A stretch of DNA of 64,000 nucleotides from Tubulanus polymorphus. Its lineage: Eukaryota; Nemertea; Palaeonemertea; Tubulaniformes; Tubulanidae. A program made the translations under genes and the position numbers. The number at the start of each line of letters is the position of its first letter. The stretch's first letter is position 1. The notes below the pieces were generated by a model. It searched no databases. It was given only the letters and a program-made list of their open reading frames with translations, and was not told the origin of the DNA. This document shows, piece by piece, positions 1 to 40,700 of this stretch. The stretch is taken from positions 21,333,110 to 21,397,109 of the forward strand of contig NC_134030.1 in assembly GCF_964204645.1 (NCBI RefSeq), given 5' to 3'.

Positions 1-5595
<5,595 letters not shown>

Positions 5596-18241: not shown

Positions 18242-18247
18242 TTTATT
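18242..18247 (-). terminator. Polyadenylation signal of receptor A
   Basis: Minus-strand AATAAA (plus TTTATT), about 85 bp after the receptor A stop codon. Confidence 0.6.
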
Positions 18248-18330: not shown

Positions 18331-21300
18331 TCAATCCTTTCTGCGCGCTCGTATCGCGGCCATTAACGCGTCTCTTGGGTCCTCAGCTGGAGCTGGTCTT
18401 GGTGGCGGAGCTGCGGGTTTAGGTGCCGATGCGGCTGGAGCGGGCGGCACAGAGGGTCCTGGCGGTTGCGGAGGAGCCGGTGGTGCTACCGCGGCTGGAG
18501 GAGGAGGGGCAGGAGCTAAAGGAGGAGGTGGAGCTGGAGTTGCTGGGGGTGGTGCTGCTGGTGGGGGAGGGGCAGGAGCTGCTGCTGCTGGTGGGGGAGG
18601 GACAGGAGCCGCCGGGGGAGGAGCTACTGGTGGGGGAGGGGCAGGAGCCGCCGGGGGAGGAGCTACCGGGGGAGGTGGTGCTGGAGCTGCTGGAGGAGGC
18701 ACAGTTAGAGGAGGTTGTGGCACCGGGGCTGGTGATACAAGAGTAGGCGGGACCGGATTCGCAAGGGGCGGCGGTGGTGGGGCGGCTACCCGTGGGGCGG
18801 GGGCGAACGAAGATGGAGCCGCTTTTGGGTGAGCGCGAGCTTGAGCTAATATAGAGTGTAGTCGAGGTAAATGCGACTCAGGCGCCGGTAACATCGGATA
18901 AGTCTCTTCATCATCATCGTCATCACCGTAACTATCAAACTCATCGTCTGGATACTCGTCGTAATAGTGAAACTGTTGATTCTCGTCCCACCAACCGTCA
19001 TCGTTATAGTACGTTCCTTTCTCGTGATTGTACCAGTAACCGTCGTGTCGGCTGTGTCGAGTAGCGGCCGCCAGTCTAGCGTGTCTGCTGACGCCGGCGA
19101 CCAGTCTATCGTGTCTGCTGCCGGGACGATAGCGATGAAGACCTTGACCCCGCGAGAATCGTCTCGAAGGTCGACCGTCTAGGCGACGAGCCTCGTCCTC
19201 GGCGCGGTTCAACTGTCAAATAAAGAAATGTCGATATTGAGTAAGGTAACTTAGGCCATGAAATAGTGATCAACTCTCCCACCAGAGGGCGCCAGTAAAA
19301 GCCTGACTACATTTTATGCAAGACATCCAAATATTGATAGGTGATTCACTTAAAACAAGTGGAATGATCTATCTCGGCATTAGATAATGTCCTACTGCGC
19401 ACTAGCGACACCTAGTGAATCGCCCTCGCTAATTATTATTTCAGTACTTACCGTTGCTAAGGATACCGCAAACTTTGTACCCGGAGTCTTGGATTCAGAT
19501 GATTTACCACAACACGGACACATCAGTTCGCGCATGCGCATACATCGTTTGGCGGCCATTGAATTTTTACAAGCCATTGTTATACAGCTACAATATACAG
19601 AGAAATTCAGGAGATTAGATTTGATGTCAAACCAGGTATCAATCTGCAGCCTATCGTGTTCAAAACACTATAACCATTCTCTTGGGACCCCTCAGACATT
19701 ATGCATGCCATCAACATTGTCATTCCTCAAATTCTATTCGAAAATTAACTAAAAACACCAGATATTAGACATTTTAATCAGCATACTTTCAAAAACTGAT
19801 CGTCGACACTTCACATGTGTTCAGTGCTTCACCTGAGACATTTCTAATTGAAAATGAACTACAAACACCAGACATTAGACATTTTATCAGCACACTTTCA
19901 AAAACTGATCGTTCACACTTCACATGTGTTCAGTGCTTCACCTGAGACATTTTTAATTGAAAATGAACTACAAACACCAGACATTAGACATTTTATCAGC
20001 ACACTTTCAAAAACTGATCGTCCACACTTCACATGTGTTCAGTGCTTCACTTGAGACATTTCTAATTGAAAATGAACTACAAACACCAGACATTAGACAT
20101 TTTATCAGTACACTTTTGAAAACTGATCGTCCAATGCCTCAAGGGGTGCAGGTTCCAAGATGCAGATTGATACCTGTATTGAAACTTTACTCGCGACGAT
20201 CGGAAAGCAGTGGTTGATTAGGAATATATTCGGGATATTTACCAGTATAAACAGCAAGGTGAAAAGCACAGGAGACAAATCACAATAACAGCGGCGGAAA
20301 TACCGACCATTGTACGAGCTTCTTGTACGTTGAAATCAAACCTGACTTCACCGGGTACTAGAAAAAAATAAAACACAAAAAATAAATAATCATGTCCATA
20401 TAATGGGGACAGTGTTTGTTAATCAACTATATTGACATCTTCACCCGTCAAGGGATTCGAACCCACTACGCTAAAGCTGTTCCCCGAACCCCTTGACCTC
20501 ACGAGTCGTTGGAGTCGTTACTAGCCGACCAGAATCCGGTCGTACCACTCATAGCGCTTGTCACAAACGACTTTAGGCTTCTGTTGGTTTTCCCGTTAAA
20601 TGGACCAATCAGCGAACGTTTTACCGAACAAGGAAGTATTTCGCAAATCGATATATGACGTCATGCGCAGCAACGCCAGTAATGAAATCACGCGTGGTGA
20701 GGCCAGGGGCCTGGTGGAAGCGAGTTCGGGAGTGATACCGGACCCCTGGCAAGCGAAGATGCTATTTTGACAGTATTTCTACAATTGAAAACGAGGCTTA
20801 ATATCTGTTGTCTGATATTGGTTCAAGGATGTTTAGTACATTTTGTCTTATTTCGTTCTATCCTTTGTTAATATCTATGTAGCTCATATATCCAACTGTA
20901 GCTGTGTTAGGCGATGTGATAACCCAGCAGGATCCAGTTTTACAGTTGAGAGTTCGTTATAAATTCTCAATGAGTCAAATTTCAAACTCCCGATACTGTG
21001 GAACTGTTCGAATAATTCGAAAACTTTTTCGTGAAATCCATCTCGTCTTACCGAAACACTCCTTCACGTTGTAGGTGGCGCTACCGTCCGTGGTACCGTT
21101 AGACGGGCAATCGAAACAGTTTCCCATCGCGAATTCCGCCTGGTACGTTCCCTTCTTACAGTCGTAACAGGTGTAATCCTCGGGTGGACTGTACTGTCCC
21201 GGGTGACACGGTACTGAAGCAATAAAACAACGGATTGAATTAGATTTAAATTCCTCGATGATTCAAATAAAATGGGACATTTTGTGAAGAAAACTGGTAA

Positions 21301-24300
21301 TTTACATTAGATTGGTTAACCAAAATGAGATTGATCAGCTATAGTACAAAACCGAGCTTTAACAGGTCTTAAGTTATTAGATATAGTTATAAAACCTAAA
21401 AAACGATAATGATTTTTGACCGGTCTTAAGTTGATAGATTGGTTACAGAACCACAAGTAGCTTCGACTGGTCTTAAGTTGTTAGATTTGTTATAGAACTA
21501 ATATGAGCTTAGACCGATCTTAAGTGATTAGATTGGTTATAGAACCAAAATGAGCTCAGACTGGTCTTAAGTTGTTAGTCTGGCTATAACAAATCTAAGC
21601 TTTCATTGGTCTAAAATTTAAGCTCTTTTGGATGGTCGGCTGCTTACTGCAAACAATATCCTGCACGCTATAACCCGCTGGACACGTAAACGTAAATTGC
21701 TTTTCCAGTGAATTCTTATCCAACCGGAAACTACCGGGACCAGTCTGCGCCACAGCACCCTCTGCTTGTAGGAATGCGTCTAAACTGCTGAATGCCTGTA
21801 ATACGATACGGAAAAAAAGTTTGAACATTTTAAAGAATGTTTTCCAAATTAGTATATCAATCTTTAGCCTCTTAAAGACATTGCTCACACTTCAGATCTG
21901 TTCAAAATCTAATTTGAGACATTTTTGATTAAAACTTAACTACAAACACTAGACATAAGACATTTTATCGGCACACTTTCAAAAGCTGATCGACGCTCTA
22001 TTCAGAATCATAATCAATTTCAATGGTGAATTTCTTGTAAGCGCTGGCCGCAGATTCTGCTACCCCTTTTGTTAACAAAATGGAAGATTGTCGTCGAGTC
22101 GTACCTGATTGAAGTTGGCCATAGCTTGCTGGCGCATGCAGATGAAATCGCAGTCGGGAAGCTCATAGGACGGGGAGGCCACGATGTTGAACTTCACGAC
22201 CAGCTCGTGCTGCAAACTGCCCATACTGGCGAAATAGTGACACTGTATATCAATCGTATTCACTGTACAGGCGGTCAGGGCACCGGGCGGGCAGATTTTG
22301 ATTCTCAGCAGTCGTTCCAAAGTCGTTCGTTTCGCGGCCAGCGAGTCGCAGTTCTCGGCCAGATAGCGGTATTTGGTTTCATACGTAAAGTGCGGTGTCG
22401 TGTACACTATAAAGAAATTTAAAATCCTCTACAAAAACCGTTTCGAAGAAATTCTCAAAGTTCTTAAATTAATCGATGTATTTCTTAATCATCTTTTTTC
22501 AAAATCGTGCGCATATTATACCTATGAGGTTTCTTTGAAATTCTTTCGTAATATCGGAGCCGGCCGCATCGCGACCCGTGACGTAACATCTGTACTGGCC
22601 GGAGTCTAACGCCTGCGCGTCGTTCACTACCAGGTCGCCGGACGGCGCCACCTGTAATCGGGAGCGGCTGATCCGCCGACCGATCTGGTCGGTCCAAACG
22701 ACATCCGGGTCCAGGAATTGTGACGCCATTTCGGATTTAATGCAAGGCACGACGACAGTCTTACCGCGGTGAACGTGGACTGAAATTGGAAGAAAAAAGC
22801 AATCAAACATCTGTGCTACATTCAACGGGTACGGGTACTGCAATGGAAATCGATGGGCTCGAAGGATCCACCAGGCGTCGCTAGTGTACAGTCAGAAAAA
22901 TAATTTCACCGCGCAAAAACGAACTTTTTGTTTTGCTCTGCAAGTTTCGTTTCGCATTTTACTATAACCAGGACCTAGTTCCACAGTTGTGAGTAAGAAG
23001 AGTTAACTCTGAGTTAAAGTTAGTTCATTTTCAATGAGTTAACTCTGAGTCAAATCTTAACTCAGAACTGTAGAATTGGATCCAGGTTCATATCAAAATA
23101 ATGCATGTGACAGACAAATAAACCATAGAATACGTTTGAACTAACCGTCGTTTCCCGTGGGAACCGGAGTTGTGTGCGCAGGCGCCACATCTGAAATAAT
23201 GAACATACTCCTTCAAACTGGAATCGTATATACGTTCAACATTTCAAAAGAGTCATGACACTGAAATTTGCCGCTCAGTCCTAGTTCCTTACGCCTGAAC
23301 TTGACTGTGCTCAAATCGTGAAAAGATGCAGTGGTCAATAGTGCGATATTGTGAAATAATGAATTCAACTTTTCTTAAAATCCAGTTATATGAAAAATTA
23401 ATTTCTAAAAAACACTCTTACTCAGTGGCAACTGTTCTCCCGGCGCGACCGGAAGCTGCAACCCGTAAACGGAAATGACGTACGACCCGTCAGAGGTAGG
23501 GAAGCCGCCGCATACGTCAGTCGGTTCCTGGACGCACTTAGCATTGCAGAGTTCACCTGGTACGTTCACTATTGACTGTAAGTCATCTTGGCGGCCGCAT
23601 AAACATTTGAACCTGAATGTGAAAATCATGTGTAAATATGTAATTTAATAGATAGTACATAAGAGTCCTGGGGGCCATATTTATTAAAAACGAAGAGTTT
23701 TTCATAAATTTCTTTTTGTTCGCTTACCCCATTTCCATAGCGATGAAACGAGTAGTTGGAATCGGAGGACAGGCTTCCACACAATCAGACAATCTGCCTT
23801 TCTGATGTTCCCCCAAACTGAACGCGCGATACAAACGTTTCGACTCTCTGAAACAGCCTATAAACGTCGGCGCTGCTGCAACGGGTAGAAAAGTATTTAC
23901 GATGATTTTGTAACTCTCCTCCAAACGAATTCCCGTGGTATTTGATGGGAAAAACAATTTTGTTTATAGATTAATTTTTACAAGAGGGAAAAATTGTTTA
24001 AAAAAATTGTTACAAAAGATAACAAGGTTATGTACGATTATGTATTGTGCTATTTACAAGTCACTACAACAGCGACTACAACAACGCCCCTTGCAGGCGT
24101 TTACCGAACTAATATTTACCCGGATCAGGCGATGTTGTGGCGTGTGGCGGCGATGTTTGTTTCGCTGGTGAATTTTCCCACATGCCTGGCGGTGCTCCGC
24201 CACCTGGCGGTGATAGTTGATTCCCAGACGAATATTTATTGAAATCAGATTGAGTGCCACCTAGCGATGGAGAACGTTGATAATCTTTCGGAGCCAAGTT

Positions 24301-25909
24301 TTGTGGTGGCTGTTTTGGGCTGTTCTGGACCCAATTGGGCGGTGGCGCCTGACGAAAATTCGGAGCTTCGCGAGTTTTCTTCTTTCTGATTTCAGCTGGG
24401 TTTTTCCCGGGATATTCGGTCGTCTGTTGTTCGCGTGAAATCGTGTCAGTATCTAAATACAGAATGAAACTGATGATAATGATATCGACTATGGCTTTCT
24501 TCGATAACCCATGAACTGTTCATGACATAAATTATCATGACATCGAAATGCCGATGCAACCAATTCGAATCAGACAGCTTTAAGGTCTGTCTGGATAAAG
24601 TGTAAAGCCTAATCTACGAGCAATTAAGATATTAGTATGCACGTAGACCTGTTGTTTATGGGTTTAGTTAGGGGCAAGTAAAAAGGATTATGTGATTCTA
24701 CTAGTCGATGAACGGCAGCACACTGACTGAAAGAGTGCAGGGTACAGACGGCAGATTGTCTGAGGGGGTGCAGGGTACAGACAGCAGATTATCTGAGGGA
24801 GTGCAGGGTACAGACAGCAGATTGTCTGAGGGAGTGCAGGGTACAGACAGCAGATACAGGGTACAGACAGCAGATTGCCTGAGAGGTACAGGGTACACAC
24901 AGCAGATTGTCTGAGGGGGTGCAGGGTTCTGACAGCAAATTGTCTGAGGGGTGCAGGATACAAACAGAAGATTGTCTGATGGGGTGCAGGGTCCAGACAG
25001 CAGATTGTCTGAGGGTTGCGGGATAAAGACCGCAAGTCTGATAGGGGTTGTTGCCGTAAGTGCAGCTACAGTTGCATTTGGGTAGACTCATTGATCAGGT
25101 TATGCTATTGGAGGGGTTTGGAATAACCTATAGACCTACCTAAACGGGTCTGTTGGATGTAGTGAGACCCGGTCGAATAAACCGACCAAGCCGTGTAGCG
25201 ATCCAGGGTAGTTTTACCCCCGCAGAATAACGACGAATTCAGCTCACAGGGGGCGTTGCAGTATTCGTCTTGGACACGTTTTATTTCGTCGGTTCCGTCG
25301 TTTAAAGTGTCACCGCATAAACAGATCTTTCTAAACAAAAACACAATTCAGTTTAAGTGATGGTAGGCTACGGAAAAATAGAACCAATTTCTGAATAAAC
25401 AAGCCATAATTTCAGATAATTAGGGTATAAAATTGGTTTGTTTACTCGTCACAAAGAAGGGCCCAGTTGCATAGTCCGACTTACGTTCAAAAGTAGACTT
25501 AGGCCTAGACCTTAAGACTGGTCGTTTATGAGAATTGGGCGTTTCATAGAGTTGTTAGTTCGGTAAACGCCTCAAGTCAAGTTGAAATAGACAGTCATTA
25601 GTCCACGTGTAATGTTATGAAATTAGGTATTAGATTAATCATAGGACTATGATATTCCTAGAAATCTATGCCTGTTCAAAAGCCCCTGGGTCCCGAATGT
25701 ACGTACCCATGTGATAAAGCGGCGTACTGTCGGTTATGGGCTCGACAGTGTGCCACGCACTCGACGGGGGCGCTCGAGGGCGTGGGGTCGAAGCGGAAAT
25801 TCCACTGCCCTACGACTTTATCAGCGAAACAGCCTTCATACTTCAACGCGGCGACGACGGTCTCGAAAAGCCAAAATAATTGCAAAAGTATCAGGGCATT
25901 ATTCTTCAT
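18331..25909 (-). CDS. Receptor A: WSC-WSC-Ig-GCC2/3 single-pass membrane protein with polyproline/WH2-like tail
   Basis: Thirteen exons on the minus strand: 25909-25707, 25330-25140, 24452-24120, 23875-23728, 23612-23422, 23190-23146, 22779-22522, 22406-22105, 21795-21648, 21213-21052, 20357-20243, 19587-19452, 19212-18331. All phases agree; the total is 3,114 nt, 1,037 residues. Order: signal peptide (MKNNALILLQLFWLFETVVA); WSC1 split over exons 1-2; a Pro/Gln-rich linker of 110 residues; WSC2 (exons 4-5); short linker; an Ig domain (VVVPC...VVW...DSGQYRC); an unrecognised cysteine module (exons 8-9); a GCC2/GCC3 repeat (PCHPGQYS...GTYQ); one TM helix (MVGISAAVIVICLLCF). The cytoplasmic side has a CPCCG motif, an acidic Tyr/Trp-rich stretch (about 19044-18895), a long polyproline region and a C-terminal DALMAAIRARRKD resembling a WH2 core. 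Role inferred: surface receptor linked to actin or profilin. Paralogue of receptor B. Confidence 0.85.
19279..19294 (+). promoter_or_regulatory. CTCF-like motif
   Basis: CCACCAGAGGGCGCCA fits the vertebrate CTCF core closely. It lies in the last intron of receptor A. Motif match only; binding is not shown by sequence. Confidence 0.4.
19745..20135 (-). repeat. 109-bp satellite, array 2 (~3.5 copies)
   Basis: Same unit as 6250-7140 in reverse orientation. It lies in the receptor A intron between the TM exon and the CPCCG exon. Confidence 0.9.
20450..20560 (-). repeat. Possible tRNA-like SINE fragment
   Basis: The minus strand shows a B-box-like GGTTCGAATCCC (plus about 20454-20465). The A-box part is weak. 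It lies between the TM and GCC2/GCC3 exons of receptor A. Confidence 0.35.
21300..21612. repeat. ~47-bp minisatellite, degenerate (~6 copies), in receptor A intron
   Basis: Recurring GGTTATAGAACCAAAATGAG, CTTAGACTGGTCTTAAGTTG, TTAGATTGG. The same family appears at 33950-34180, 38180-38640, 45880-46400, 49320-49600 and 58560-58930. Confidence 0.75.
21870..22010 (-). repeat. Decayed single copy of the 109-bp satellite
   Basis: Recognisable ACTACAAACACTAGACATAA and GACATTTTATCGGCACACTT with many substitutions, in a receptor A intron. Confidence 0.6.
22975..23090. repeat. Palindromic 'GTTCCACAGTT' dispersed element
   Basis: GTTCCACAGTTGTGAG at the left and AACTCAGAACTGTAGAATTG at the right, as at 3325-3445. 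Intronic in receptor A. Confidence 0.6.
24710..25030. repeat. ~33-bp minisatellite in receptor A intron
   Basis: About nine copies of a unit around GCAGGGTACAGACAGCAGAT and TGTCTGAGGG. A unit length divisible by three gives long open frames in several frames; they are not coding. A single copy recurs near 36500-36555, upstream in receptor B's first intron. Confidence 0.8.
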
Positions 25910-26354
25910 ATTAGGCTATCAAAGGCATCTTTTCACATCGTGTTCATTCGGTCAAAAATTCCCAGAAAATTGGTAGCGAATTCGGTTGTAACGAGGCTGG
26001 TGATTGGGTGAAATTATTTAACAATTATGTCCGGTGCAGTAACCGTTTCTATAGATATGGTAACATAGTAACCTCCTCGGGTTAGACAACAGGCATAAAT
26101 CGCTTGTGGTTGGATTCCGTTTTTTGCTTTTTAATATCTCGTTTTCTCGCATGGATTCCGACGATTCAACTGATCTGAAACTATTGCTCGATATTTTGTT
26201 GAAAGCTGGATTCCTTCTCTGATACATCCCGATGCGCATCATAGGAAATAAAGAATCCGCAGTCTCGGTAAGGTTTGTTTTTTTAGATTCATTGAAAGGC
26301 AATGTAATTCTTTTATAAAACAACACATTGTAATTCTTTTATAAAACAACACAT

Positions 26355-26360
26355 TTTATT
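26355..26360 (-). terminator. Polyadenylation signal of receptor B
   Basis: Minus-strand AATAAA only about 26 bp after the stop codon, which would give a very short 3' UTR. Confidence 0.5.
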
Positions 26361-26385
26361 ATACAATACAGTTCACATTCCATCG

Positions 26386-29300
26386 TTATTTAGGTGGAGG
26401 TGGTCCTGGAGGAGCGGGTGGTCCTGGAGGAGCGGGTGGTCCTGGAGGAGCCGGTGGCCTAAGTGGGGCTGGTGGGCCAGGTGGAGCTGGTGGTCCTGAT
26501 AAAGTTGGTGGTCCGGATGGTGGCGTTGCTTTTGGTGATCCTGGTGCTGGTGGTCCTGGAGGAGCTGGTGGTCCAGGAGTAGGTGGCAGACCAATTGGTG
26601 GCATCGGTGGTCCTGATAAAGCTGGTGGTCCGGGTGGTGGTGGTGCTTTCGGTAATCCCGGTGCTGGTGGTCCTGGTGGAGCTGGTGGTCCTTGTGATGG
26701 CAGTCCTACTGGTGGACCTGATGCTGGTAATCCTGGTAGTCCTGGTGGAGCTGGTGGTCCGGGTGGTGGCAGTCCAACTGGTGGTCCTGATGCTGGTAAT
26801 CCTGTTGGAGCTTGTGGTCCTGGAAATGACATCGGCGGGAGTGGTGGTCTCACTGGCATCTGTGGTGGTTCTGGTGGTCCTATCGGTGGTCCTACCGGAG
26901 GCGGAGGCACTGGTAACGGAGGTGTTGGTATACTAGAGGCCCCACCAGCGTCGCGAATTGCAGCTAACAGCTGCTGTCGATCATCACCAGGTGGAGCCAC
27001 GGGTACAACAGAATCGTTCCGGGCTATATTACGTATTGACGCAAACAACTGCTGCCGATCATCACCAGGTGGAGCCACAGGCACTACAGAATCGTTCCGG
27101 GCTATATTACGTATTGACGCTAACAACTGCTGCCGATCATCACCAGGTGGAGCCACAGGCACTACAGAATCGTTCCGGGCTATATTACGTATTGACGCTA
27201 ACAACTGCTGACGATCATCAACCAATCGTGGTTCGTTCGCTATCGCTTGTATGACGTCATCAGCGGTGACGTCATCGGTTTCGCTGTCACGCGCTAACTG
27301 CCGTATCGATTCTAACAACTCGCGCCGACCGAGCAGGTCAGCTGACATCCTGCGACTGGAGCGCCGTTCGCCGGCTTTATGATGCCTCACCGAGTCTCTT
27401 ATCGACTGCAATAACGCGTCTCTACCAGACGAACTAACCCTCCTCCGATTCGCAGACGACTCCTCCTTAACGGCATCGCGTATAGAACGTAACAGTTCCT
27501 CTCTTCCGGGAATTGCCGAGTATCTCCGAGCGGTAAAGTGATCCGATTCGTCGCTTGTGACGTCATATTCGACGGCCTCGCGTATCGACTCGAGCAGGGC
27601 TTTACGACCGGTATCGGCTGCCGATAAGCGTCGGCTTTCGCGACGGATGGCTCCGGCTATTTTAGCAACCGCTTCGGCCTCGCTATCCGCGCTATCCGTC
27701 GTTCCTAGGTCCCGGATAGATTTCAGAAGTTCTTCGCGGCCGTGCGTCGAATGTCGCTTAGAATGTCGTCTGCGATCGTCCGATCCTCGGTCGACCTTGT
27801 CACCGGCGTGTACGACTAACCCTTTGCGGCTCGATTTCGGACTCGGACCCGGTTTCGGGAGGTTTGCGCGCTGACCGCTATGCGAGGTTCTGGCTGAGAT
27901 CGGCGCGCTGTCCGCTTCGGACGAGTCCTCTTTAACCGTAGACGTCTTCCGCGTTTTAGCGCCGCTAAATTTCGGCTGCATCATCGACATCTGGCGTTCT
28001 TGTTTGGCCAGACTGGTTAACAGTTTAACCGACGTAGAATGCTCATCGGAACTTCCATGAGAAGAGCCCGAAGACTTTCCGACATCCTTTTTCGAAGGTG
28101 GAGGCGAAACCAACGACCGGCCCTCCTCGCTCTCCGAGGACGACTCGGGCGAAATCGCCTTCGTACGTTTCGCCTGTTCGACGACGTTGGCGAATTTCGT
28201 TTTAGGCGTAACGGCTTTGTTTTTAACGATTCGTTTAAAAGTCTTCAACAGACCCTTGCGACCGTCGAAGCTTTCAGTCGACCCGTCGTCGCCGGTTTTA
28301 GGAAGCGCCGGTGATACGGGCGGGAATAACATGTATTTCGGTATCGGTTTTGGTGGAGTCTTTTTCCCGTCGCTATCAGACGCTGTTTCTATCTGATGAG
28401 AGGAAATTGCCGGAACTGTTTGTGGTAAAGCGGCGCGCATTGATTTCAGTAAATCAGACTTCATCTGCTTCGTTTCTTCGTCGTCCTGTGCGTCGTCGTC
28501 GACTTCCGGTTCGATTTCTGTCGCCTGGAGTTCGAAGAAAAGCAATGAATGATTTTAATTGTGGCAAGTGAGAACCACTAGGTGTCTCTAGTGTGCAGTA
28601 GGACATCAACTACTGCGACAGGAGAGGATTCCACTTAAGGCAAGTGATGGTCCACCAGGTGTCACTAGGGTGCAGTAGGACATCGACTACTGCGGCAATA
28701 GAGGATTAAACTTGTGGGGATCCACCAGGTGTCGCCAGTGTACAGTAGGACATCGATGCTGGATCTCTAAACGAGGTTCAAAAATCTAGATGAAAGTTTT
28801 CTGTCCCACGGATACGCACGCCATCTAGTGGGAAATCTGGGGATACGCATATTCCACGTTGATATGGACTTATAGCTTTGGTAAATCAGAGATTTATGAA
28901 CTTACGCTTATCAAGGCCTGTTTTTCGGAGTCTGTTCCCGAAACTGGTTCCGTTTTCTCAGCGATGCGTTTGAATATTCGAGCCCAGATGCCTTTCTTCT
29001 CTTCCAGAGTTCTCTTATGAACCCCCAGAAAAGAAAATATTGCTTTAACATTTTACAATTAAACTTATTGAGCAGAAAATATGGGTACCTAATATTTCCC
29101 CCTATGACGCAATTAGGGTAACATCAAGTTCGTAAATGAATTTTCTATGACATAGATTATGACATCATAAACCAAAAGCTATTCGATGACATCATAGTTG
29201 CAGCCATCTTATTTTGAATTATGTGACGTCATAATGGGAATAAAGGGGCACCCATTTCAAGTTTACTGGGTAGGAGGGTGTTTACCTTTTGAATCTGATT

Positions 29301-32300
29301 CTGGGCAACGGTGTGTCCACATTTCGGGCAAAGTAAATTCCCGAGTCGCAAGAAACGCCATAATTCTTTTTTGTCTTTGAAGTAGAATTTGACCAACCTG
29401 AGATATATATTTCAGGAAAAACGCAGTTGTAACAATCCTAAAGTTACATCGGTGAAAAGGAATTATTGACCAGCGATCCGAATTTTATATTTCCCAAAGA
29501 AACGACTGTAGCAAAATCGAAAGAAGTTCGAAAAGAAACGGAGACATGGGTTCATACGTACCAATAGAACAGACACGGGGTCGCGAATAAGAGTAAAATC
29601 ACCAGGAAAACTGCGACTGAACCGACGATTGATCCTGTTTCATTCATTTTCACCGAAACGCGTATTTCTCCTTTATCTACAAGTAATATTTGGAATCGAT
29701 CAAAAAAATTTTGAAATTCTGAATGCAGAATGAATTGAGCAATTACTTGTGGCCCCCGGTGGATCATGACTTGCCACAAGTGGAATAATCTATTGCCGCA
29801 GTAGTTGATGTCCTACTGCTCACTAGTGACACCTGGTGGATCCTCACTTGCCTCAAGTGGAATCCTCTATTGCCGCAGTAGTTGATGTCCTACTGCACAC
29901 TAGTGACACCTGGTGGATCCTCACTTGCCTCAAGTGGAATCCTCTATTGCCGCAGTAGTTGATGTCCTACTGCTCACTAGTGACACCTGGTGGATCCTCA
30001 CTTGCCTCAAGTGGAATCCTCTATTGCCGCAGTAGTTGATGTCCTACTGCTCACTAGTGACACCTGGTGGATCCTCACTTGCCTCAAGTGGAATCCTCTA
30101 TTGCCGCAGTAGTTGATGTCCTACTGCTCACTAGTGACACCCGGTGGATCCTCACTTGCCACAAGTGGAATCCTCTATTGCCGCAGTAGTTGATGTCCTA
30201 CTGCACACTAGCGACACCTTGTGGATCCCCTCTTGCCACAAGAAGAAACATTTATTGCCGCAGTTGTAAATGTCCTACTGCACTCTAGCGACACCTGGTG
30301 GATCCACACTTGCCACACGTGGAATCCTCTATTGCCACAGTTGTTGATGCCCTACTGCACACTAGCGACACCTAGTGGATACTTATCTACCGCAAGTGGA
30401 ATCCCCCATCACCGCCGTAACATTAGCGATTACCCATTTCGATATTTACCGCTTTGCCAGGTGAACAAACTTACCAATGCAGTCTTTGATGTTGATCGTC
30501 CCAGTAGATGGCGTTGTGCCGTTTCGAGGGCAAACGACGCAGCGAGGCATTGCGTAATCGGGTTGATAAGAACCCATATCGCAGCGGTGACAGTTATCCT
30601 GTACGGCAGTGCTGTAGAACCCCGGATGACACGGTACTGTAACAGAAACAAAAAATATGGATTCCAGCACTGAGGGTTTAACAGATGAAACCACACAACG
30701 CCACTTATAGTTATTAAGATAGAATCCCATGATACATAGAAAAAAAAATAGGTTCGATTTCATGATTTAAAAGGTTTCCATTTCATTTGAATTAATATCT
30801 TAATTATACTGAACGATACTGAATAAATACTCCTAGGTCCAGTTTTATAGACTGGCATTATCTTAAATCTGGGGGTTAACTCAATTAAAAATGTGTTAAC
30901 CTCGGGTTAAAGATAAAACTAGTCTATAAAACCGGGCACTGAAGGTAGAAATAAAAGTTTTCTTGAGCTGCTAGTTAAAACTAGATGATACTAGTTGATA
31001 CTAGTTGATACTAGTCATGCGACTCTTCGATCAATGGCTACCACACACAGCTCGTAACAGGGCTTACCGCAGATGATGTTGTGTAGTCTATATCCGCCGG
31101 GACATTGAAAAACGAAATCGTTTTTCAAAGAATTGCGATCGATGTTGATCGTCTGGTCGTCGATCTTATTCACTTCTGCGAGAACTTCGTTGTCAACTAC
31201 TGCAGAAACGGCTTTGAATTCCTGACAGAAAAAGAAATGAAAAAATGCCTAATGCCTGGTGTTTGTGATTAAAATTCATTAATATTGTTCAATAATGAAT
31301 AAAGTGTGCTGATGAATGTCTTCTAATGTCAGGTGTTTGTAGTTCATTTTCAATTAAAAATGTCTCAGGTGAAGCACTGAACACATGTGAAGTGTGGACG
31401 ATCAGTTTGTGAAAGTGCGCTGATAAAATGTCTAATGTCTGGTGTTTGTAGTTCATTTTCAATTAAAAATGTCTCAGGTGAAGCACTGAACACATGTGAA
31501 GTGTGGACGATCAGTTTTTGAAAGTGTGCTGATAAAATGTCTAATATCTGGTGTTTGTAGTTCATTTTCAATTAAAAATGTCTCAGGTGAAGCACTGAAC
31601 ACATGTGAAGTGTGGACGATCAGTTTGTGAAAGTGCGCTGATAAAATGTCTAATGTCTGGTGTTTGTAGTTCATTTTCAATTAAAAATGTCTCAGGTGAA
31701 GCACTGAACACATGTGAAGTGTGGACGATCAGTTTTTGAAAGTGTGCTGATAAAATGTCTAATATCTGGTGTTTGTAGTTCATTTTCAATTAGAAATGTC
31801 TCAGGTGAAGCACTGAACACATGTGAAGTGTGGACGATCAGTTTTTGAAAGTGTGCTGATAAAATGTCTAATGTCTGGTGTTTGTAGTTCATTTTCAATT
31901 AAAAATGTCTCAGGTGAAGCACTGAACACATGTGAAGTGTGGACGATCAGTTTTTGAAAGTGTGCTGATAAAATGTCTAATATCTGGTGTTTGTAGTTCA
32001 TTTTCAATTAAAAATATCTCCGGTGAAGCGCTGAACACATGTGAAGTGTGGACGATCAGTTTTTGAAAGTGTGCTGATAAAATGTCTAATATCTGGTGTT
32101 TGTAGTTCATTTTCAATTAAAAATGTCTCAGATGAAGCACTGAACACATGTGAAATGTGGACGATCAGTTTTTGAAAGTGTGCTTATAAAATGTCTAATG
32201 TCTTGTGTTTGTTGTTTGTTTTCAACTAAAAGCGTCGCACAATGATTATCACAATAGATAATTTTAATTTCCGATAAAATCTAACGCGCTTGACTTTATG

Positions 32301-35300
32301 GTCTACATATCGAGAGTACGTTTAGATAGAACAATGCCTAACAAGCCCGGCTAGCTCAGTCGGTAGAGCATGGGACTCTTAATCCCAGGGTCGTGGGTTC
32401 GAGCCCCACGTTGGGCGTTGATTTTGCCGTCGATTTCATTTTTCCGTTGAAAGCTTACATTTTCATATGTCTTACGCGAAAAACCCTTCGGTGTTGTCCA
32501 TTTCGTAAACCACTTACCTGATTGAGGTAGCCAGTGACTGATGCCCGCATACAATCGAAATCACAATTCGGTAGATGATACCTAGGACCCGGTATCAAGT
32601 CGAAAGCCACTGTTAAACTATGCCGCACTTTCTCCGAATCTTTCTTACTCTTGTAGAAATGACATTCGGTTTTGAATTTAGCCATCGCGCAAACTCGATT
32701 CTTCGGGCAAACGCTCGACTTGAGCAGTTTTCTGATGGCGGCTTGTTTTGCGGCGAGTTTCGGCGAGTCGCACGAGTCTAACTGGTAGCGAAAACTGACC
32801 CGGTATTTGAAATCCGGTGACACGTAAACTGCGAACGAAAAAGGGGTATATTATAATGTGATATCCCAAAATGATAGAGTAAAGTGTTTGCTTGAACTAT
32901 TCCAACCGTTGTGCCGTTCAAGATGGCTGACTGGTGGCCATTTTTGATTCCAAAAAAAATGTCAGATTAACAGGTCAAATGATATCATGAATTAAGTCAC
33001 CATGCCAAGAGGCTGTCTGATTCTAAAAAAGTGTCTGAAAGTTTATTCCACGCTTCAACTTTATCTAAATAGTCCGGGAATATCGAACTTACACAAAACT
33101 CGTCCTGACGATGACTTTTTCAGTTATAACGTCGAAATAAACTACTCGATAAATCTTTTTGGACTATATTTTCATACTTAGTTAGGGATTTTATAACACT
33201 AGTTTTAAGTTCCTGGAGATGTTCATTAGGATATAGTTGAAATGTGTAAAATATTTCCTGACGCCACCTAGCGGCTGTGTTGATTGTTAATACCTGTCGA
33301 TTCAATGATAGCAGTTACGTTTTCTTATGCGTTATACTAAATTATACATTCAAGGCCGAAGCTATGTTTCCAACGCCATCTAGCGACCGGTGATTTAGTT
33401 ACCTACGAGTCTGGATTGGAATTCCTTAATCTCTTTGTTACCGCTGTCGTCCTGCCCGGTCACCCTGCAGACGAACAAACCACCGTCTTTCGGCTGCGCG
33501 TCGACGAGGCCAAGGTCACCCGACTCCATCGTCTGGTAGCGCTCGTTGGCGATTGGCTGGTTGAATTTATCGTGCCACGTCACTTCCGGATCGAGAAAGT
33601 CGTGCGAGACTTCCGGTTGTAGGCAGGGTACGATCACCGACTTGCCTCGTTCAACCCGAACTTTATCAGCGAAAAAAAAATATCGAATAAATATCATTCT
33701 AAATTCTTAAAGAAATCGTTAATTAGCAGATATTATTTTGGTTCTTACTGATGTGGACTTGTTTCACCACGCGGGCTCCGCTGTCAGTCAAATTATTTGT
33801 AACTCCGCCCATTTCTTCGTCTTGATCCGGCGAGTCTAAAATAGATATATGATATCAACCTTATTAAACTTTCCACAAACGACGGCTGCTTTTTTTAATT
33901 TCCGTATGACATCATCAGCCATCTTTACCGAAGCTGATTGCAGTGCCACCATTAAGTCCTATAACCAATCTAAAAACTGAAAACTAGTCTAGACCTCAGT
34001 CTTAAGATTTAAGACCACTTCTTAAATCAAGTTTTTAGATTGGCTATAGAACTAAGTTGGTCTTAGACTGGTCGTAAGTCTAAGCGATGACTTTGCAATC
34101 GGCCGCTGGAGCTGGATCCATAGTCATGGCTTAGACTCAAGACCAGTCTTAGACCACATCAATGCTAATCTAATAACAACTTAAGTAGAGTTCGTAGATT
34201 TGAGCTCAATTTTAGGGGAAAGTACCTGAACTCAAAATCGTACCTGCTACTACTGGTGCTGCAGCATCTGCCACTGGTTTCAGCGGTCTACTGTAGACCG
34301 ACAGTGTATTGTAATCTGTGTCAGCCGACCCCCCGCAAAGTTTCTCTTCGCTCCCCTCGCAGTGGTAGCTGCAGCGCGAGTCCGGTACCGGCTCCAAAAC
34401 TTTCATATCTTTCTGTTCCCCGCACCGACAAATGGACCTGAAAATTTAAAATCTGGTAATCCGGTGCCTAATTTCAGAAGCAATTCATTTTCATAATCTT
34501 GATTTTGTTAATTATCTACAATTTGTAAGTAATTATCATTCCAACTCAAATCAATTAAAGCCCGGCTAATGGGGGTTTTGTTTGGGGTAAGCGATGGTCC
34601 ACCAGGTGTCACTAGTGCGCAGCAGGACATCAACTACTGCGTGATAGAAGATTCTACTTATGTCTGCAAGTAAGAATCCACCAGGTGTCACTTGTGCGCT
34701 GCGCAGTAGGACATCAACTACTGCTCCAATAGAGGATTCCACTTTTGGCAAGTGAGGATCCACCAGGTGTCCCTAGTGCACAGTAGTTAAAATCATTCAT
34801 GTTTAGAAACACTACCACGATTTGAAATCAATAAGACAACTCATAAGGTATCTTCTAAATACGCTTTAAGACTTGTAGGCTAATATTTTCTGATTATTTC
34901 TTATTACCCTTTCAACATGGCGGCGAATTTGTAGTTTTCCGCGTTACACTTATCGACGCACGAACCGACGACTTCGTTCGAATGCGTCGGGCCCGTGAAA
35001 CTGGGCGCCACGTCACTCAACGGCTCCAGAAAACAGCCCACATACGTGACGTCATCGTCGCCTGCGGTCGTGCTATTCAACGCGTTAAACCAATATTCAG
35101 CGGTTTGCTCGCTAACCGGTGTCGGTGTCGTGGAAGTTGTTTTCGTCGCAGCGATGCGAACAGTTTTAGACTTCTGGTTATCGTAAACGGCCAGTATAAA
35201 GTATTTCGGACTCGCGTCCACCGAGCCGCCGCACTTTCTACGCGGCTCAGCTGAACACGGTTTCGTGCAATATTTCGAATCGTTGAGTTTCGCCATGCCG

Positions 35301-36867
35301 TCGATACGACCAGCACAAGAACACAGTCCACTGAAATCAGATTAAAACCCGATATTAGGTTAAATGTGATGCCAGGTTTACACTTGTATGAAATCATACT
35401 ATATAGTATAAAAAAAGGGTGCGGAAGTGCTCCTTGAGCTAATTGATAGTTTATAGGCCTAGGTTTGTTCAACTTTTCTAATGGAAGTTACGACAAAATA
35501 ATTATCAGATACCCTATTCAGAGGGCAAATAAGATATAAGATGATCCTAGGTTTACTCAACGTTTCTTGCGTGGAATCTAATGGAAGTGGGCAAAATTTT
35601 ATCAGATATATCGAACGACAATCCGGGAAGAATAAGTAATAAGATGTTATACAATCTAAGGTGATAAACATCATAAAACAGTAACGAACTAAACTTATTC
35701 GAAGCAGAGCGAACTCTAGGATGACGTCTTATACTATAGTAAATAGGCTAAACAAAAATGATACCTTGTTTCTCCGCAGCGGCCGGGTCATTTTTGTAAA
35801 ATAAGATAAAATGTATAAACAGTTCATTTCTATAGCGGCCGGGTCTGTTATGGTAAAATTGATCACGATTTTAAAAAAATATGTATAGGGTAGATAGGCG
35901 GCCGGCCGGGTCAACATTTAAGCTCAGCAGAGCGGAGAAACAAGGTATCAATTTTTTTTAGCCATATAAGTTCAATGGCTAGACTTCTTGGAAGCCAAAT
36001 AGGAAGGCGAAAATAGATCATTTTTATGTAGCGTTGATGCCTTCCCATTTTATAGGATTGGGTATGAATCCTGACAATGTGGGTTCGATAATGACAGCTG
36101 TAGTATAACATGAAAGGTCGGTATTGTTAATAGCTACAGCAGCTCACCACACTCACCAGACTAACTCCCAAACCGCAAAAATCACTTCAGATTTATGGTC
36201 TAGCGGTTTGCGCGCTCGGTCGGCAAGCCGCTGGCTGTAGGTTCGAGTCCTGCTAGGGTAACGGCTAGGTTTAAGTTTCGGGGAATTTGGAAATTTCATG
36301 ACCATGGTGAATTTTGAAGGAAATACCCTTTTTGGGATAAGTAACGTGGCTCCGGCGGGCTGGTCTCCAACTTTACCAATCATTTTGATAAAAACACCAT
36401 ACCCTATGAGAGAATAAAGCCCATGAATTTGGTAGCCGTTTCACAAAGCTACTTATTCTTTCTTGACTAAGTTTTATCATTGTCAGTCCGTCTAAGGGGT
36501 GAGTACAGACAGCAGATTGTCTGAGGTCAGGATTGTCCGATTGGTTGCAGGGTACAGACGTCTTTGCACTCTTCGAATTAGCTTTAATTACCTTTCAACT
36601 AATTTAAGATGAACTCAAGTCTTACCCGTCAGAAACCGCGCTGTAGCGATGGCCTTCCTCCAAACACTGCTCAGAACAGACCCTAATAGACACACGGTCA
36701 GCATCGTTCAACGATTCCGGAACGAACATGAACTTTCTCGAATTTTCATCGCTTTTCAAATCGCCGAAACAACCGACGTATCGTCTGGCCTCGGATCGCT
36801 CGGAGTACAAAGAAACTGCAACGAAAATCAGCCAAAATATGGTGGTTTCTTTTGATGTCTTTTGCAT
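26386..36867 (-). CDS. Receptor B: WSC-WSC-Ig-GCC2/3 single-pass membrane protein with tandem WH2-like repeats and polyproline tail
   Basis: Twelve exons on the minus strand: 36867-36626, 35330-34908, 34437-34244, 33835-33749, 33660-33403, 32828-32518, 31221-31068, 30636-30475, 29676-29562, 29397-29286, 29013-28906, 28524-26386. Phases agree; 4,305 nt, 1,434 residues. The ATG at 36867 precedes a signal peptide (TTIFWLIFVAVSLYSERSEA). WSC1 (GCFGD...), a linker and the first half of WSC2 share exon 2; exon 3 completes WSC2 (CRCG...KLCGG). An Ig domain follows (VIVPC...VTW...DGGLFVC), then a cysteine module, a GCC2/GCC3 repeat (PCHPGFYS), a TM helix (SIVGSVAVFLVILLLFA) and CPKCGH. The 713-residue last exon has about ten LLxSIR motifs, three in nearly identical 26-residue repeats (26955-27225), then about 180 residues of Pro/Gly/Ala. 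Inferred role: receptor recruiting actin monomers and profilin. A start upstream of 36867 in the same frame would be non-ATG. Confidence 0.86.
28565..28770 (-). repeat. 77-bp repeat family, ~3 copies
   Basis: Reverse-oriented copies of the unit seen at 29755-30400: CCACCAGGTGTCACTAG, CAGTAGGACATCAACTACTG, AGAGGATTCCACTT. In a receptor B intron between the WH2-tail exon and exon 11. Confidence 0.8.
29755..30400 (+). repeat. 77-bp tandem repeat, ~8 copies
   Basis: Unit of 77 bp (for example copies starting at 29832 and 29909): CCTGGTGGATCCTCACTTGC, AAGTGGAATCCTCTATTGCC, GCAGTAGTTGATGTCCTACT, CACTAGTGACA. In the receptor B intron just before the TM exon. Each copy contains, on the minus strand, CCACCAGGTGTCACTAG, one base away from a CTCF-like core. 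Related arrays: 34575-34795, 50620-50910, 52095-52390. Confidence 0.9.
31290..32235 (+). repeat. 109-bp satellite, array 3 (~8.5 copies)
   Basis: Same unit and orientation as 6250-7140, with copies more alike to each other; recurrent 68-residue frames are spaced exactly 109 bp. Lies in the receptor B intron between the two exons of the cysteine module. Confidence 0.92.
32345..32417 (+). tRNA. tRNA-Lys (anticodon CTT)
   Basis: Cloverleaf of 73 bases: acceptor arm GCCCGGC pairs with GTTGGGC (two G-U), D arm GCTC...GAGC, anticodon arm TGGGA/TCCCA with loop CTCTTAA, T arm GTGGG/CCCAC with loop TTCGAGC, discriminator G. A-box TAGCTCAGTCGG and B-box GGTTCGAGCCC are intact and a TTTT Pol III stop follows within about 10 bases. 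No intron. The 3' CCA is not encoded, as expected for a eukaryote. It lies on the strand opposite to receptor B, inside its intron between exons 6 and 7, about 100 bp from an exon. Confidence 0.95.
33950..34180. repeat. ~47-bp minisatellite family, degenerate
   Basis: Fragments such as TAGACTGGTCGTAAGTCTAA and GATTGGCTATAGAACTAAG, in both orientations, in a receptor B intron. Confidence 0.55.
34575..34795 (-). repeat. 77-bp repeat family, ~3 copies
   Basis: CCACCAGGTGTCACTAGTGC and GCAGTAGGACATCAACTACT in reverse orientation, in a receptor B intron. Confidence 0.8.
35750..35955. repeat. Foldback element with GCGGCCGGGTC motifs
   Basis: AATGATACCTTGTTTCTCCGC (about 35757) is mirrored by GCGGAGAAACAAGGTATCAA (about 35932). 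GCGGCCGGGTC occurs three times inside, and once more at about 54707 within an SLC6 intron. No coding capacity. Confidence 0.6.
36190..36270 (+). repeat. tRNA-like SINE head in receptor B first intron
   Basis: A-box-like TGGTCTAGCGGTTTGCGCGC and B-box GGTTCGAGTCCTGC at tRNA spacing, without a paired acceptor stem. The downstream sequence is AT-rich and lacks a clear tail. Confidence 0.5.
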
Positions 36868-37712
36868 TTTAGTTCTCAATAGAAATTCGTGCAATTGCGA
36901 TGGAGTTTGTCCACCATTTTGAAAACGTTTTTCTTTTTCGTTGCCCGACAACAGACGATCTGACGGTTTCTGTCGTCATGGTAAGTAAACGAATATCTCT
37001 CTGAGCCGTCGCTACAGAATTTGCGGGATCAGAAAACTGACGGCTTTTTAAATGTTTTCAATAAAGTGGTCGTCATTTCACAAAATAGATAAAGGTATGT
37101 TCGTATTCACGACCTACAGTTGAAAATGTTGAAGTAGTAATAGAACTGACTCTGATTAAGATCTCTAAGAATTTTACTAAACATAGGCCTTAATATGGCT
37201 ACTGTCTGTCACAACTGCTCTTCGTGCGACGTTTTGGTGCCTAATTTCGTTAATAATCGGTTGATCTGTAAATATTATGCATCAATTTGATCAGTAAGGA
37301 ATTTGCATTCAGAAATAAATCATGAACTGGCTTAAATTTGTTTGCGTTTTCATCTATCAGCGATAGTTTACCTAGCATACGCTCGCTTAATGCTGAAAAA
37401 CGGCTTTTATGGCTTGTCACTCGGAGCCACCCACTGTATATTGATATGCTAATGAGCAGGCGATGAATTGATACCCACTAACCACCGGACCAAGCGCTTT
37501 AACTTGCTTTACATGGCTAAAAGATGAAGACAACAAATAGGCCCGAAGACGTATCAATTTTCTAAACGAGCGTTCTCAAAATATTTTGTTTTTTTTTCTA
37601 ATGCTGAATTTCACGGGGCCAAGACCTACGCAATGTCTAGAAATCATTACAATTCAACGCTTTTTAAGATATCCTTCGAATTCATTTCTTATCAACTGAT
37701 TTTTTTTTTCAG
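36868..37712. promoter_or_regulatory. Divergent intergenic region between receptor B and gene C
   Basis: About 850 bp separate the receptor B ATG (minus) from the gene C ATG (plus), so the two genes are head-to-head and may share control sequence. A strong acceptor (poly-T then CAG, AG at 37711-37712) sits 3 bp before the gene C ATG, implying a spliced 5' UTR exon somewhere upstream. I could not place transcription starts or a TATA box. Confidence 0.45.
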
Positions 37713-37715
37713 AAT

Positions 37716-40700
37716 ATGATGGCACTGATTTTCAAATGGGCGCCGTTATTGTGGTTTCTTGGTTTGCCGGTTCTAATTGACGCATCCCCGAACGTCCAGC
37801 CAATCGGATGCTTTCAACCAATGCGTCTATCGACCAATGGGAGACTAGGGCCGTTTTACAAGATCGTCGGAGGCCAGAGCAATACGCCCTGCGGATGCGG
37901 TCTAAGATGTTACTACAAGAGATTTGAATTCAGTGCCGTGCAAAAAGGGCAAGCATGAAAAACGTCGTAATATGATTTTCTGGACCATTAAGTGCATATT
38001 TGTCACTTAAATTCAAAAGTCACAAATGGTCAAGTCGCACGATAGAAAGAACCCAGATGGTGTTGGACTGGTTTTAACTCTGTACTTGAACCACCTGGCG
38101 CTGGTTTAGTTATCCGGCATAGATTCATTATATAAATATTCGTATATCTTAAGAATATAAGTTCATCTTGTTGCATTGAAGATAAGTTGGCCATAGAGCT
38201 TAAATGGAAAAGAGTTTAATTGAACTAAAATGAGCTGATAGACTGGTCTGAAGTTGTATGATTGGTTATAGAACCAAAATGAGCTTAGACTGGTCGGAAG
38301 TTGTAAGATTGGTTATAGAACCAAAATGAGTTTAGACTGGTCGGAAGTTGTAAGATTGGTTATAGAACCAAAATGAGTTTAGACTGGTCGGAAGTTGTAA
38401 GATCGGTTATAGAACCAAAATGAGTTTAGACTGGTCTGAAGTTGTAAGATTGGTTATAGAACCAAAATGAGCTTAGACTGGTCTTAAGTCGTTAGATTGG
38501 TTATAGCACCAGAATGAACTTAGACTGGTCTTAAGTTGTCAGATTGGTTATAGAACGAGAATGAGCTTAGACTGGTCTTAAGTTGTTAGATTGGCTATAG
38601 AACCAGAACTAGAACGATTAGAATAGCAAAAATAGTTTTAGACTGGCCTTGTCTAAGTAACGGGTCCCGTCCATTTTATTTTGTAGTGGTATTTGTCGCT
38701 GTTCTAGACACCTGTATGAAAATCAGCCGATTGGTTATAACTACTGTCTGAGTCAGTGTCTGACCAATCAGTGGCTGTTTTGCGGAGGTTCAGCCAATCA
38801 GTTAAGCGTCTCTCGCACCGGGTACGTGCCGAAAAAACCGGTTCGCATTTACAAGTTGCCGTGTAAGTTTTCTCGTTCATCGAATCCAGTTTGTTTCTAG
38901 GACAGGCTGCAGCCGAGTACATAGCTAGCTGACTAGACTAGTCGTAAGAGCGGGGCACTTAGTCAGCTGTTGCAGGTTCGAATCCAAAATCCAACAATTC
39001 ATCTTGCCATTTTAGTTTGCTATAGTTGTTTCTGTGCAGAACTCCAGTTACACTATTGTTGCTTCAGTCTGAACCCAGTTCCAAAGTTTGGGTTTAACTT
39101 GACTCTGAACCCAGTTCCACAGTTGCGTGGGTTTAATTTGACTCTGAACCCAGTTCCACAGTTGTGTGGGTTTAAGAATCCAGTTCTACAGTTGTGTGGG
39201 TTTGATTTGACTCTGAGCCCAGTTGCACATTTGCGTGGACTTCATTCGACTTTGGTCTTTGGAAGGCAGTTTAAGACCTACAATCTAATAAATCTACTTT
39301 CATTTCGACTTTCAGATCAAGATGATATCGTAGCTTGGTGGCCGCTGGATCGAATCTACACATCTACCGATATAAGCGGCGCCGGTCTCGACGGCACAGT
39401 GCACGGGGCCCCATTTACTGAACCCGGCCCACCTTCTGCGGTTCAGCAAACATCTTTAGAAATCATGAAGCCAGCGCATTCCGTCTATTTCGAAAACCTA
39501 GGCATGGACCGCGCTTTGATGGACTCCAGTTTTTCTATCGCGTTTTTCGCGAGGTTCCTACAAGAACGCGAACTGTACATATTGCTCGAATGGGTACGAG
39601 GCACTACCGTATTCGTCTACAAAAGGAAATTCAGCATCATATTGAAACCTCACGACAAATATCCGGCTTTGTTCAGCCTCACTGAGGGATCGGGAGCAGT
39701 TCCGGGCGCACACTGGCACTACTTCACCGTGTCGTATAACTGGAACACAGGCGTGATGCGGCTGGCAAACAATGACCACTCGAGAACGCGCACAATGGGG
39801 AAATTTTCGCTGGCATTCGAAGGTCAACTCTGGCTAGGCACGCGGCTTCACGATTGGAATGTACACATGTACGGTAAATTGTCTTGTTTGACGATTTTCG
39901 ACAGAGATCTGAGCGCCGCCGAATTTGCGGTCGTCAAAGACAAGTGTCTGAAAGGTTCGTGTGAATTTCATGGAAGATTTTTCTAAATTACTTCACTGTC
40001 CATGCAATAGGATAGGTTTTGACGTGATAACCTGACATGACATACTTACTGATCACTAGATGGCGAACTAGTCGCACCCGGCTGATCAGACTGTTTCGGC
40101 TTGCTTAAGTGTTGTCTTACAGTCGTTGAAATGCCTTTCTGCTCGTAGACATATTTTCGATAAGCTAAACCAATACGAAACCTGAACATATTTACAGGGG
40201 TCCGTTGCTCAAAAGTTGGTTAATCTAAATTTCAATAAAATGGTATTCATCCGTCGGTTAACTTTGGAGCAACACTGACCCCTGGAAATGTTATAGGTAT
40301 TATGGTTATTACTATTGAAAAAATTATCTTATTAATCAAACAAATTTGTTGCTTGAAATAGAACACATTTTTATGGCTACCTACATTCTATTTTTCGTTT
40401 TTCAAAATTTCAGCTAATTACCATCAGTTTTCTAGTGACTTAGCCGCTCCGCGATTAGATCCCAGCTCTGAGTATAAAGGCTGCTACCTGTCGACCGTTC
40501 AGTCGTTGCTTTACGGCCGCAAAGATTGGATGTCGCGCGACGAATGTACGTCTTATTGCCACCGAGAAAAACGCGCCTACACCGCCATGTCCGAAGGGTA
40601 ATTAATGGACAGAGTCCTAGTCCACCGTTTGAAGCACCAATATTGATGACGTAGTGCACATAGAATCGAACGCAGAACCCCTCGTATAACGCATACTCGG

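Follow-up and report, generated by a model that had tools for sequence, protein, structure and literature searches.

What kind of protein joins an extracellular part made of WSC and immunoglobulin (Ig) domains to a cytoplasmic tail resembling those of actin assembly factors? The question is raised by two neighboring genes of the nemertean Tubulanus polymorphus, here called A and B, which follow one another in the same orientation on the minus strand of a 64,000-nucleotide stretch of contig NC_134030.1 (the window). Coordinates are window positions, on the minus strand for all parts of A and B. As part of our best explanation of the locus, which is a tentative one, A and B are viewed as tandem paralogues of a lophotrochozoan receptor related to the mammalian sperm protein ZPBP (zona pellucida-binding protein), located in the acrosomal membrane of sperm and provided with tails that would gather actin or profilin-actin. 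New here is the joining of a ZPBP-related ectodomain to WSC domains, a transmembrane helix and an actin-style tail. All results were obtained by computation; the genome searched measures 267,791,593 bases in 77 contigs, and articles are cited for passages of their text.

Gene models were obtained by listing splice sites, reading in the transmembrane exon of A, checking the junctions and joining the exons. Gene A (18331-25909) is made by 11 exons and encodes 911 residues, gene B (26386-36867) by 10 exons encoding 1369 residues; these lengths replace the 1,037 and 1,434 residues assigned to the two products in an earlier reading of the same DNA (the original prediction). All introns are GT-AG, phases agree across the junctions, and each model contains a single stop, at its end, with an AATAAA sequence downstream (at 26360 in B, at 18247 in A). 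Intron phases are 2,1,2,1,1,0,1,1,2,0 in A and 2,2,1,1,0,1,1,2,0 in B. The nine introns of B correspond in order and phase to nine of the ten introns of A, including the intron preceding the tail exon; the additional intron of A, in phase 1, separates its two WSC domains. Three exon pairs have identical length (258, 162 and 115 nucleotides). The last intron is in both genes a phase-0 intron located directly 5' of one long tail exon. As this arrangement is shared by two diverged copies, a model in which ectodomain and tail belong to separate genes was judged less simple, and rejected.

The two proteins feature the same order of parts, as originally predicted: a putative signal peptide, two WSC domains, an Ig domain, a cysteine module, a GCC2/GCC3 domain, a transmembrane helix, a CPxCG motif and a proline-rich tail. 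Two WSC stretches (PF01822) per protein score above the Pfam cut-off (80.5 bits in B, 75.8 bits in A). The signal peptide and the first half of WSC 1 are encoded by exon 1 in both genes (A, 25707..25909; B, 36626..36867). In A, exon 2 (25140..25330) encodes the second half of WSC 1, and exons 3 (23728..23875) and 4 (23422..23612) the two halves of WSC 2. In B, exon 2 (34908..35330) includes the second half of WSC 1, a linker and the first half of WSC 2, completed by exon 3 (34244..34437). Signal peptides are suggested by hydropathy, which reaches 1.82 over a 19-residue window in A; in B the maximum is weak (0.96), and an 11-residue hydrophobic run, IFWLIFVAVSL, is present. GCC2/GCC3 (Ephrin_rec_like in Pfam) is also above cut-off (37.5 bits in B, 33.6 bits in A), whereas the Ig domains, likewise read into both products, score under the general Ig cut-offs of Pfam. 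A transmembrane stretch was identified by hydropathy in exon 9 of A (20243..20357) and exon 8 of B (29562..29676). The juxtamembrane motif reads CPCCG in A (exon 10, 19452..19587) and CPKCG in B (exon 9, 29286..29397).

The original prediction listed Ig, cysteine module and GCC2/GCC3 one by one, with Kremen and polycystin-1 for comparison; it missed ZPBP, and the three parts together make a ZPBP/Sp38-like unit. The Ig domain is encoded by exon 5 in A (22522..22779) and exon 4 in B (33403..33660; weak in Pfam, placed by the ZPBP alignment), the central cysteine module by exon 6 in A (22105..22406) and exon 5 in B (32518..32828), and the remainder of the module, containing CPAGY in A and CPGGY in B, by exons 7 (21648..21795) and 6 (31068..31221), respectively. 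GCC2/GCC3 follows in exon 8 of A (21052..21213) and exon 7 of B (30475..30636). Human ZPBP1 and part of ZPBP2 were used for comparison in renderings that may deviate from the true sequences in single letters; since Pfam assigns both to Sp38 (Sp38 and EGF_Sp38_C at 129.8 and 96.7 bits in ZPBP1, 153 and 94.1 bits in ZPBP2), these renderings were deemed adequate for a homology test. In the alignment Ig, cysteine module and the first half of GCC2/GCC3 are collinear with ZPBP/Sp38, the latter corresponding to the C-terminal EGF-like part. Eleven cysteine columns, two within the Ig domain and nine after it, are common to A, B, ZPBP1 and ZPBP2.

The resemblance is seen in both directions. BLASTP aligned A and ZPBP1 over 271 columns (E 3.3e-14 in a database of two sequences, without composition correction; identity 21%), and gave E 7.4e-14 in the opposite direction with the correction on; hhalign assigned a probability of 97.2. 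A profile made from A and B scored 49.7 bits with ZPBP1, covering residues 79 to 341 of 351, and 35.2 bits with ZPBP2, the best among 1000 shuffled ZPBPs reaching 8.0. The ZPBP profile in turn scored 35.5 bits with A and 26.0 bits with B, the best of 1000 shuffles being 5.4. The top Pfam Ig family of A is Sp38 (PF07354; E 1.3e-4), at 22.3 bits for the module alone vs a cut-off of 23.1, and 21.6 bits for I-set; in a longer sequence A scores 19.7 bits with Sp38, again under cut-off. When the genome was searched with the Sp38 Ig model, exon by exon in six frames and with E up to 10, five places were listed, of which the Ig exon of A was the best and the only one above cut-off (24.3 vs 23.1 bits). 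The second match (L010, 19.3 bits) is below cut-off and was discarded; several Ig-type reading frames are seen by eye in its surroundings. Of 15 genome matches listed for the cysteine module and GCC2/GCC3 of B, those in A and B alone cover the central cysteine exon, and hence no free-standing plain ZPBP was detected. No third ZPBP-type gene appeared among the listed genome matches, a survey in which best candidates only were scored and a very distant copy could escape. Relatives of A and B were found neither in viral contigs nor in bacterial and archaeal genome contigs. From these alignments we conclude that the whole Ig-cysteine module-EGF unit is probably a distant homologue of ZPBP.

ZPBP1 and ZPBP2 (Sp38, IAM38) thus share with A and B the succession of Ig, cysteine module and EGF-like end; to our knowledge, the human proteins have neither WSC domains nor a tail. 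Kremen1 is reportedly a WSC-bearing surface protein. We know of no ZPBP unit or actin-like tail in Kremen, polycystin-1 or the sea urchin SpREJ6, SpREJ7 and SpREJ10. As A and B, these are surface proteins with WSC (PMC1934368 for SpREJ), but the remaining domains differ; WSC being the only common part, a relationship of A and B to Kremen or polycystin-1 was rejected. SpREJ1 and SpREJ3, of the same family, are thought to function in the sperm acrosome reaction; the WSC-bearing SpREJs are without assigned function, and testis levels of SpREJ6 are relatively low (PMC1934368).

The cytoplasmic tail is encoded by one exon (exon 10 in B, 26386..28524, 712 residues and the stop; exon 11 in A, 18331..19212). 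The strict motif L(L/F/M)xxIR, counted in whole proteins, occurs nine times in B, which also contains LLKSMR, and once in A, at the C-terminus (18334..18381, within DPRDALMAAIRARRKD). Nine L(L/F)x(S/A)IR motifs in the B tail were matched by none of 20000 shuffles (mean 0.003). Copies at residues 923, 967, 1001, 1028, 1060 and 1176 differ by synonymous changes in the motif codons, those at 1098, 1124 and 1150 form a tandem of near-identical copies. In the last 26-residue unit, which has diverged, 15 of the 26 codons encode an amino acid different from that of the neighboring unit and 7 differ synonymously. Shuffles and codon comparison both led us to reject a chance origin of the repeats. Going from the membrane to the C-terminus, B features five units made by RRxS and GRxxLLxSIR (27301..27774), the 78-bp (26-residue) tandem units DDRQQLLASIRNIARNDSVVPVAPPG (26963..27220) and a proline-rich end (26386..26928). 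Three genome matches were listed for the repeat array, all inside B. Proline makes up 28.7% of the A tail, which has one run of five. The 45% identity between the two tails is mostly due to proline and was not used. Residues 676-721 of A (18904-19041) form a stretch rich in Tyr, Trp and Asp (GYWYNHEKGTYYNDDGWWDENQQFHYYDEY...DDDDDEE).

In Pfam the B repeat segment is best matched by WH2, with 39.3 bits summed over four stretches (E 4.5e-10); a match due to composition alone was rejected, as none of nine shuffled segments matched WH2. The top match of the 283-residue segment in PDB is N-WASP (3m3n chain W, E 6.1e-6), which is again first when a hand-chosen piece of 51 residues is used (E 4.3e-8; 2vcp and 6uhc are weaker). 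In this respect the single-pass receptor with an actin-style tail originally proposed is a fair description. LLxxIR corresponds to the helical half of WH2 only, the best Pfam stretch stopping at profile position 13-15 of 28, and by sequence pattern a WH2 helix with LLxxI appears to be present. Binding of the motif to actin is plausible. The C-terminus of A scores 15.9 bits with WH2 when taken alone; whole B scores 18.7 bits vs a cut-off of 23.1, and whole A was not listed.

RRxS occurs seven times in the B tail (residues 658-1190), vs 0.71 expected, a number reached in none of 20000 shuffles; a relaxed pattern, (R/K)(R/K)x(S/T), occurs nine times vs 2.7 expected (reached in 20 of 20000 shuffles). 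The first five LLxSIR motifs are each preceded by an RRxS serine, the nearest at a distance of 7-11 residues, and no RRxS is found within 46 residues of the last four. Since repeat copies are not independent, the excess denotes clustering rather than seven separate events. RRxS is a site for the cyclic AMP-dependent kinase, which takes part in sperm activation.

The ZPBP/Sp38-like unit points to sperm, and from it we infer expression in these cells and location in the acrosomal membrane. IAM38, equated with ZPBP2, is described as a zona receptor peripherally associated with the inner acrosomal membrane (PMC3429778); location and role are similarly described for IAM38/ZPBP in PMC7827414. Within the acrosome, A and B would carry two WSC domains, possible glycan binders, and then the ZPBP unit; the tail, probably disordered, would protrude into the subacrosomal space and present repeated WH2-like helices and proline-rich stretches. 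In polychaete sperm, filaments of the subacrosomal region are presumably made of actin (PMC5574576), and a proline-rich region and WH2 work as an actin-polymerase pair in WASP/WAVE proteins on membranes (PMC12621849). A ZPBP-related unit within the acrosome and an actin-style tail outside it would fit the subacrosomal geometry. At the acrosome reaction the ectodomain would be exposed and grip the egg coat, while clustered tails would hold actin by the LLxxIR helices and profilin-actin by polyproline, and filament growth would begin, or be sped, beneath this same membrane. Its nine repeats may make B the main actin binder, while A, with more proline and one motif, may be a profilin feeder, and the RRxS sites next to the B repeats may allow the cyclic AMP-dependent kinase to switch binding. 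In its strongest form, one gamete receptor would itself be an actin assembly factor, its tails nucleating or speeding the actin of the acrosomal process under control of RRxS phosphorylation; we regard this extension as doubtful.

Several results weigh against an acrosomal receptor with actin-gathering tails, and are best considered along with the alternatives. IAM38 being termed peripheral (PMC3429778), its location is not simply transferable to transmembrane proteins such as A and B. The two genes may encode a somatic receptor, expressed for example in neurons, immune or epithelial cells, in which an old ZPBP-like ectodomain drives remodeling of cortical actin upon ligand binding, with no relation to sperm. 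WSC is common in this genome (75 exon matches). The disordered tail of HPO-30, a membrane protein and neuronal receptor of C. elegans, makes direct contact with actin; in contrast to A and B this receptor is claudin-like, caps the filaments to which it binds and brings in the WAVE complex, and WH2-like repeats are not described in passages of PMC10411975, from which these data are taken. Some ZPBP papers, known by listing, concern other topics such as an asthma locus and the pig uterus. The somatic alternative seems nonetheless rather unlikely to us, as no third ZPBP-type gene is listed in the genome and the ZPBP literature cited here concerns sperm (PMC3429778, PMC7827414, PMC12070448).

Alternatively, the LLxxIR repeats may be helices that dock to a different partner, or to the membrane, under regulation at the RRxS sites, and the tail a scaffold, an arrangement compatible with location in sperm. 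The tails of A and B resemble WASP, N-WASP and WAVE in the LLxxIR helix, the GRDALL form and the adjoining proline-rich stretch. They differ because an LKKT/V-like string and an acidic Trp end were found in neither tail by simple pattern search, motifs precede prolines in B, and A and B are transmembrane receptors rather than cytosolic proteins. Ten single fragments were compared with WH2 (eight of the nine strict B copies, that at 1124 being left out, LLKSMR of B and LPRLHSIL of A): three matched at 11.7-14.5 bits, all below cut-off, Ish1 scoring higher in one of them, and seven gave no match. Ish1 is above cut-off also in the B repeat segment (28.1 vs 26.6 bits). Proline amounts to 17.7% of the B tail, with no run above four. 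A genome search with WH2 listed ten places, five above cut-off, and the copies in the window are not among them. The places listed include what we take to be WIP-like and N-WASP-like stretches with complete motifs; another, at positions 1501-1566 of locus L033 (GGRSDLLASIRKSGGINALKK, 23.4 bits), resembles the B repeats but has an LKK end. The WH2 label originally given to the motifs agrees with the best Pfam match of the repeats, but was too firm. With LKKT/V absent and single copies below cut-off, both the WH2 assignment and the direct recruitment of actin machinery are things we infer rather than observe, and since the match stops after the first half of WH2, and is weak in single copies, the motif is here named WH2-like. 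Docking to a different partner is an unlikely reading of a segment whose top Pfam family is WH2 and top PDB match N-WASP, and which shares with N-WASP the aligned form GRDALL..IR.

Other adverse results concern the ectodomain. Once the Ig domain is removed, the resemblance to ZPBP falls to 16.8 bits in A and 12.8 bits in B (best shuffle 7.8), and the best single stretches to 9.5 and 10.3 bits, respectively (best shuffled stretch 6.3). The Ig of A also matches contactin-2 in PDB (E 2.3e-7), and no Sp38 match is listed for B in Pfam. With EGF_Sp38_C (PF20626), A scores 9.6 bits vs a cut-off of 24 and B is not listed, for which reason A and B are called ZPBP-related, rather than Sp38 members by the Pfam standard. 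In the genome, EGF_Sp38_C lists two places, both outside A and B and both below cut-off, and a six-frame search with the above rendering of ZPBP1 lists one chance match (E 2.3), which is neither A nor B. The weak signal without the Ig, the contactin-2 match and the EGF_Sp38_C and six-frame results would suit a convergent likeness, in which an ordinary Ig sits beside an unrelated cysteine module and GCC2/GCC3, an improbable explanation for an alignment collinear across most of ZPBP and for the eleven common cysteine columns.

Additional elements mark the window and the genome. A 109-bp tandem repeat of similar consensus is found at three places, 6239-7139, 19732-20133 and 31301-32231, two of which are in introns of A and B. 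A tRNA-Lys (CTT) match, either a gene or a short interspersed element, lies at 32345-32417 (+) within a B intron, on the opposite strand. A divergent neighbor at 37668-41714 (+) shows WSC-like halves by eye and an exon resembling Laminin_G_3 (19.1 bits, cut-off 27.6); three WSC-like exons of this gene, taken singly, gave no Pfam family. A large receptor gene at 8053-14627 (+) contains six LDLa stretches, leucine-rich repeats and a rhodopsin-type seven-transmembrane domain above cut-off, and a weak C-type lectin domain; we assume that it resembles GRL101-type receptors. An exon at 4393-5592 (+) encodes an ATP-grasp enzyme (ATP-grasp_4, 45 bits), presumably carnosine synthase-like. Elsewhere in the genome, WSC exons are clustered at L005, L006 and L008 (contig C7) and at L003 and L004 (contig C9), some C7 matches having in-frame stops. 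With an E limit of 1e-15, eleven homeodomain matches are listed, nine of them of Hox type and lying within 0.3 Mb on contig C6. One homeodomain is followed by AKLNGP and two by IKELN, presumably marks of Lox5 and Lox4/Lox2, respectively, which we take to be lophotrochozoan.

No invertebrate ZPBP is named in the titles and abstract openings listed when ZPBP was paired with invertebrate terms, which represent a portion of the papers retrieved and few subscription journals. A multi-species sperm proteome in which ZPBP is discussed includes chordates only (PMC12070448), and neither WSC nor WH2 is mentioned in the ZPBP papers covered, also in part, by the survey. If A and B are what we tentatively propose, the ZPBP family would extend from vertebrate sperm to lophotrochozoans. 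Vertebrate ZPBP would then be a trimmed relative lacking membrane segment and tail, or the lophotrochozoan line would have gained both.

How acrosomal actin is started and attached to the membrane is reportedly an old question, associated with Tilney and Mooseker (1976). The proposed receptor, combining a ZPBP-related ectodomain and an actin-style tail, would offer a testable gene for the start, or the holding, of this actin at the membrane, and recognition of the egg coat and the acrosomal spike would be tied together in one molecule.

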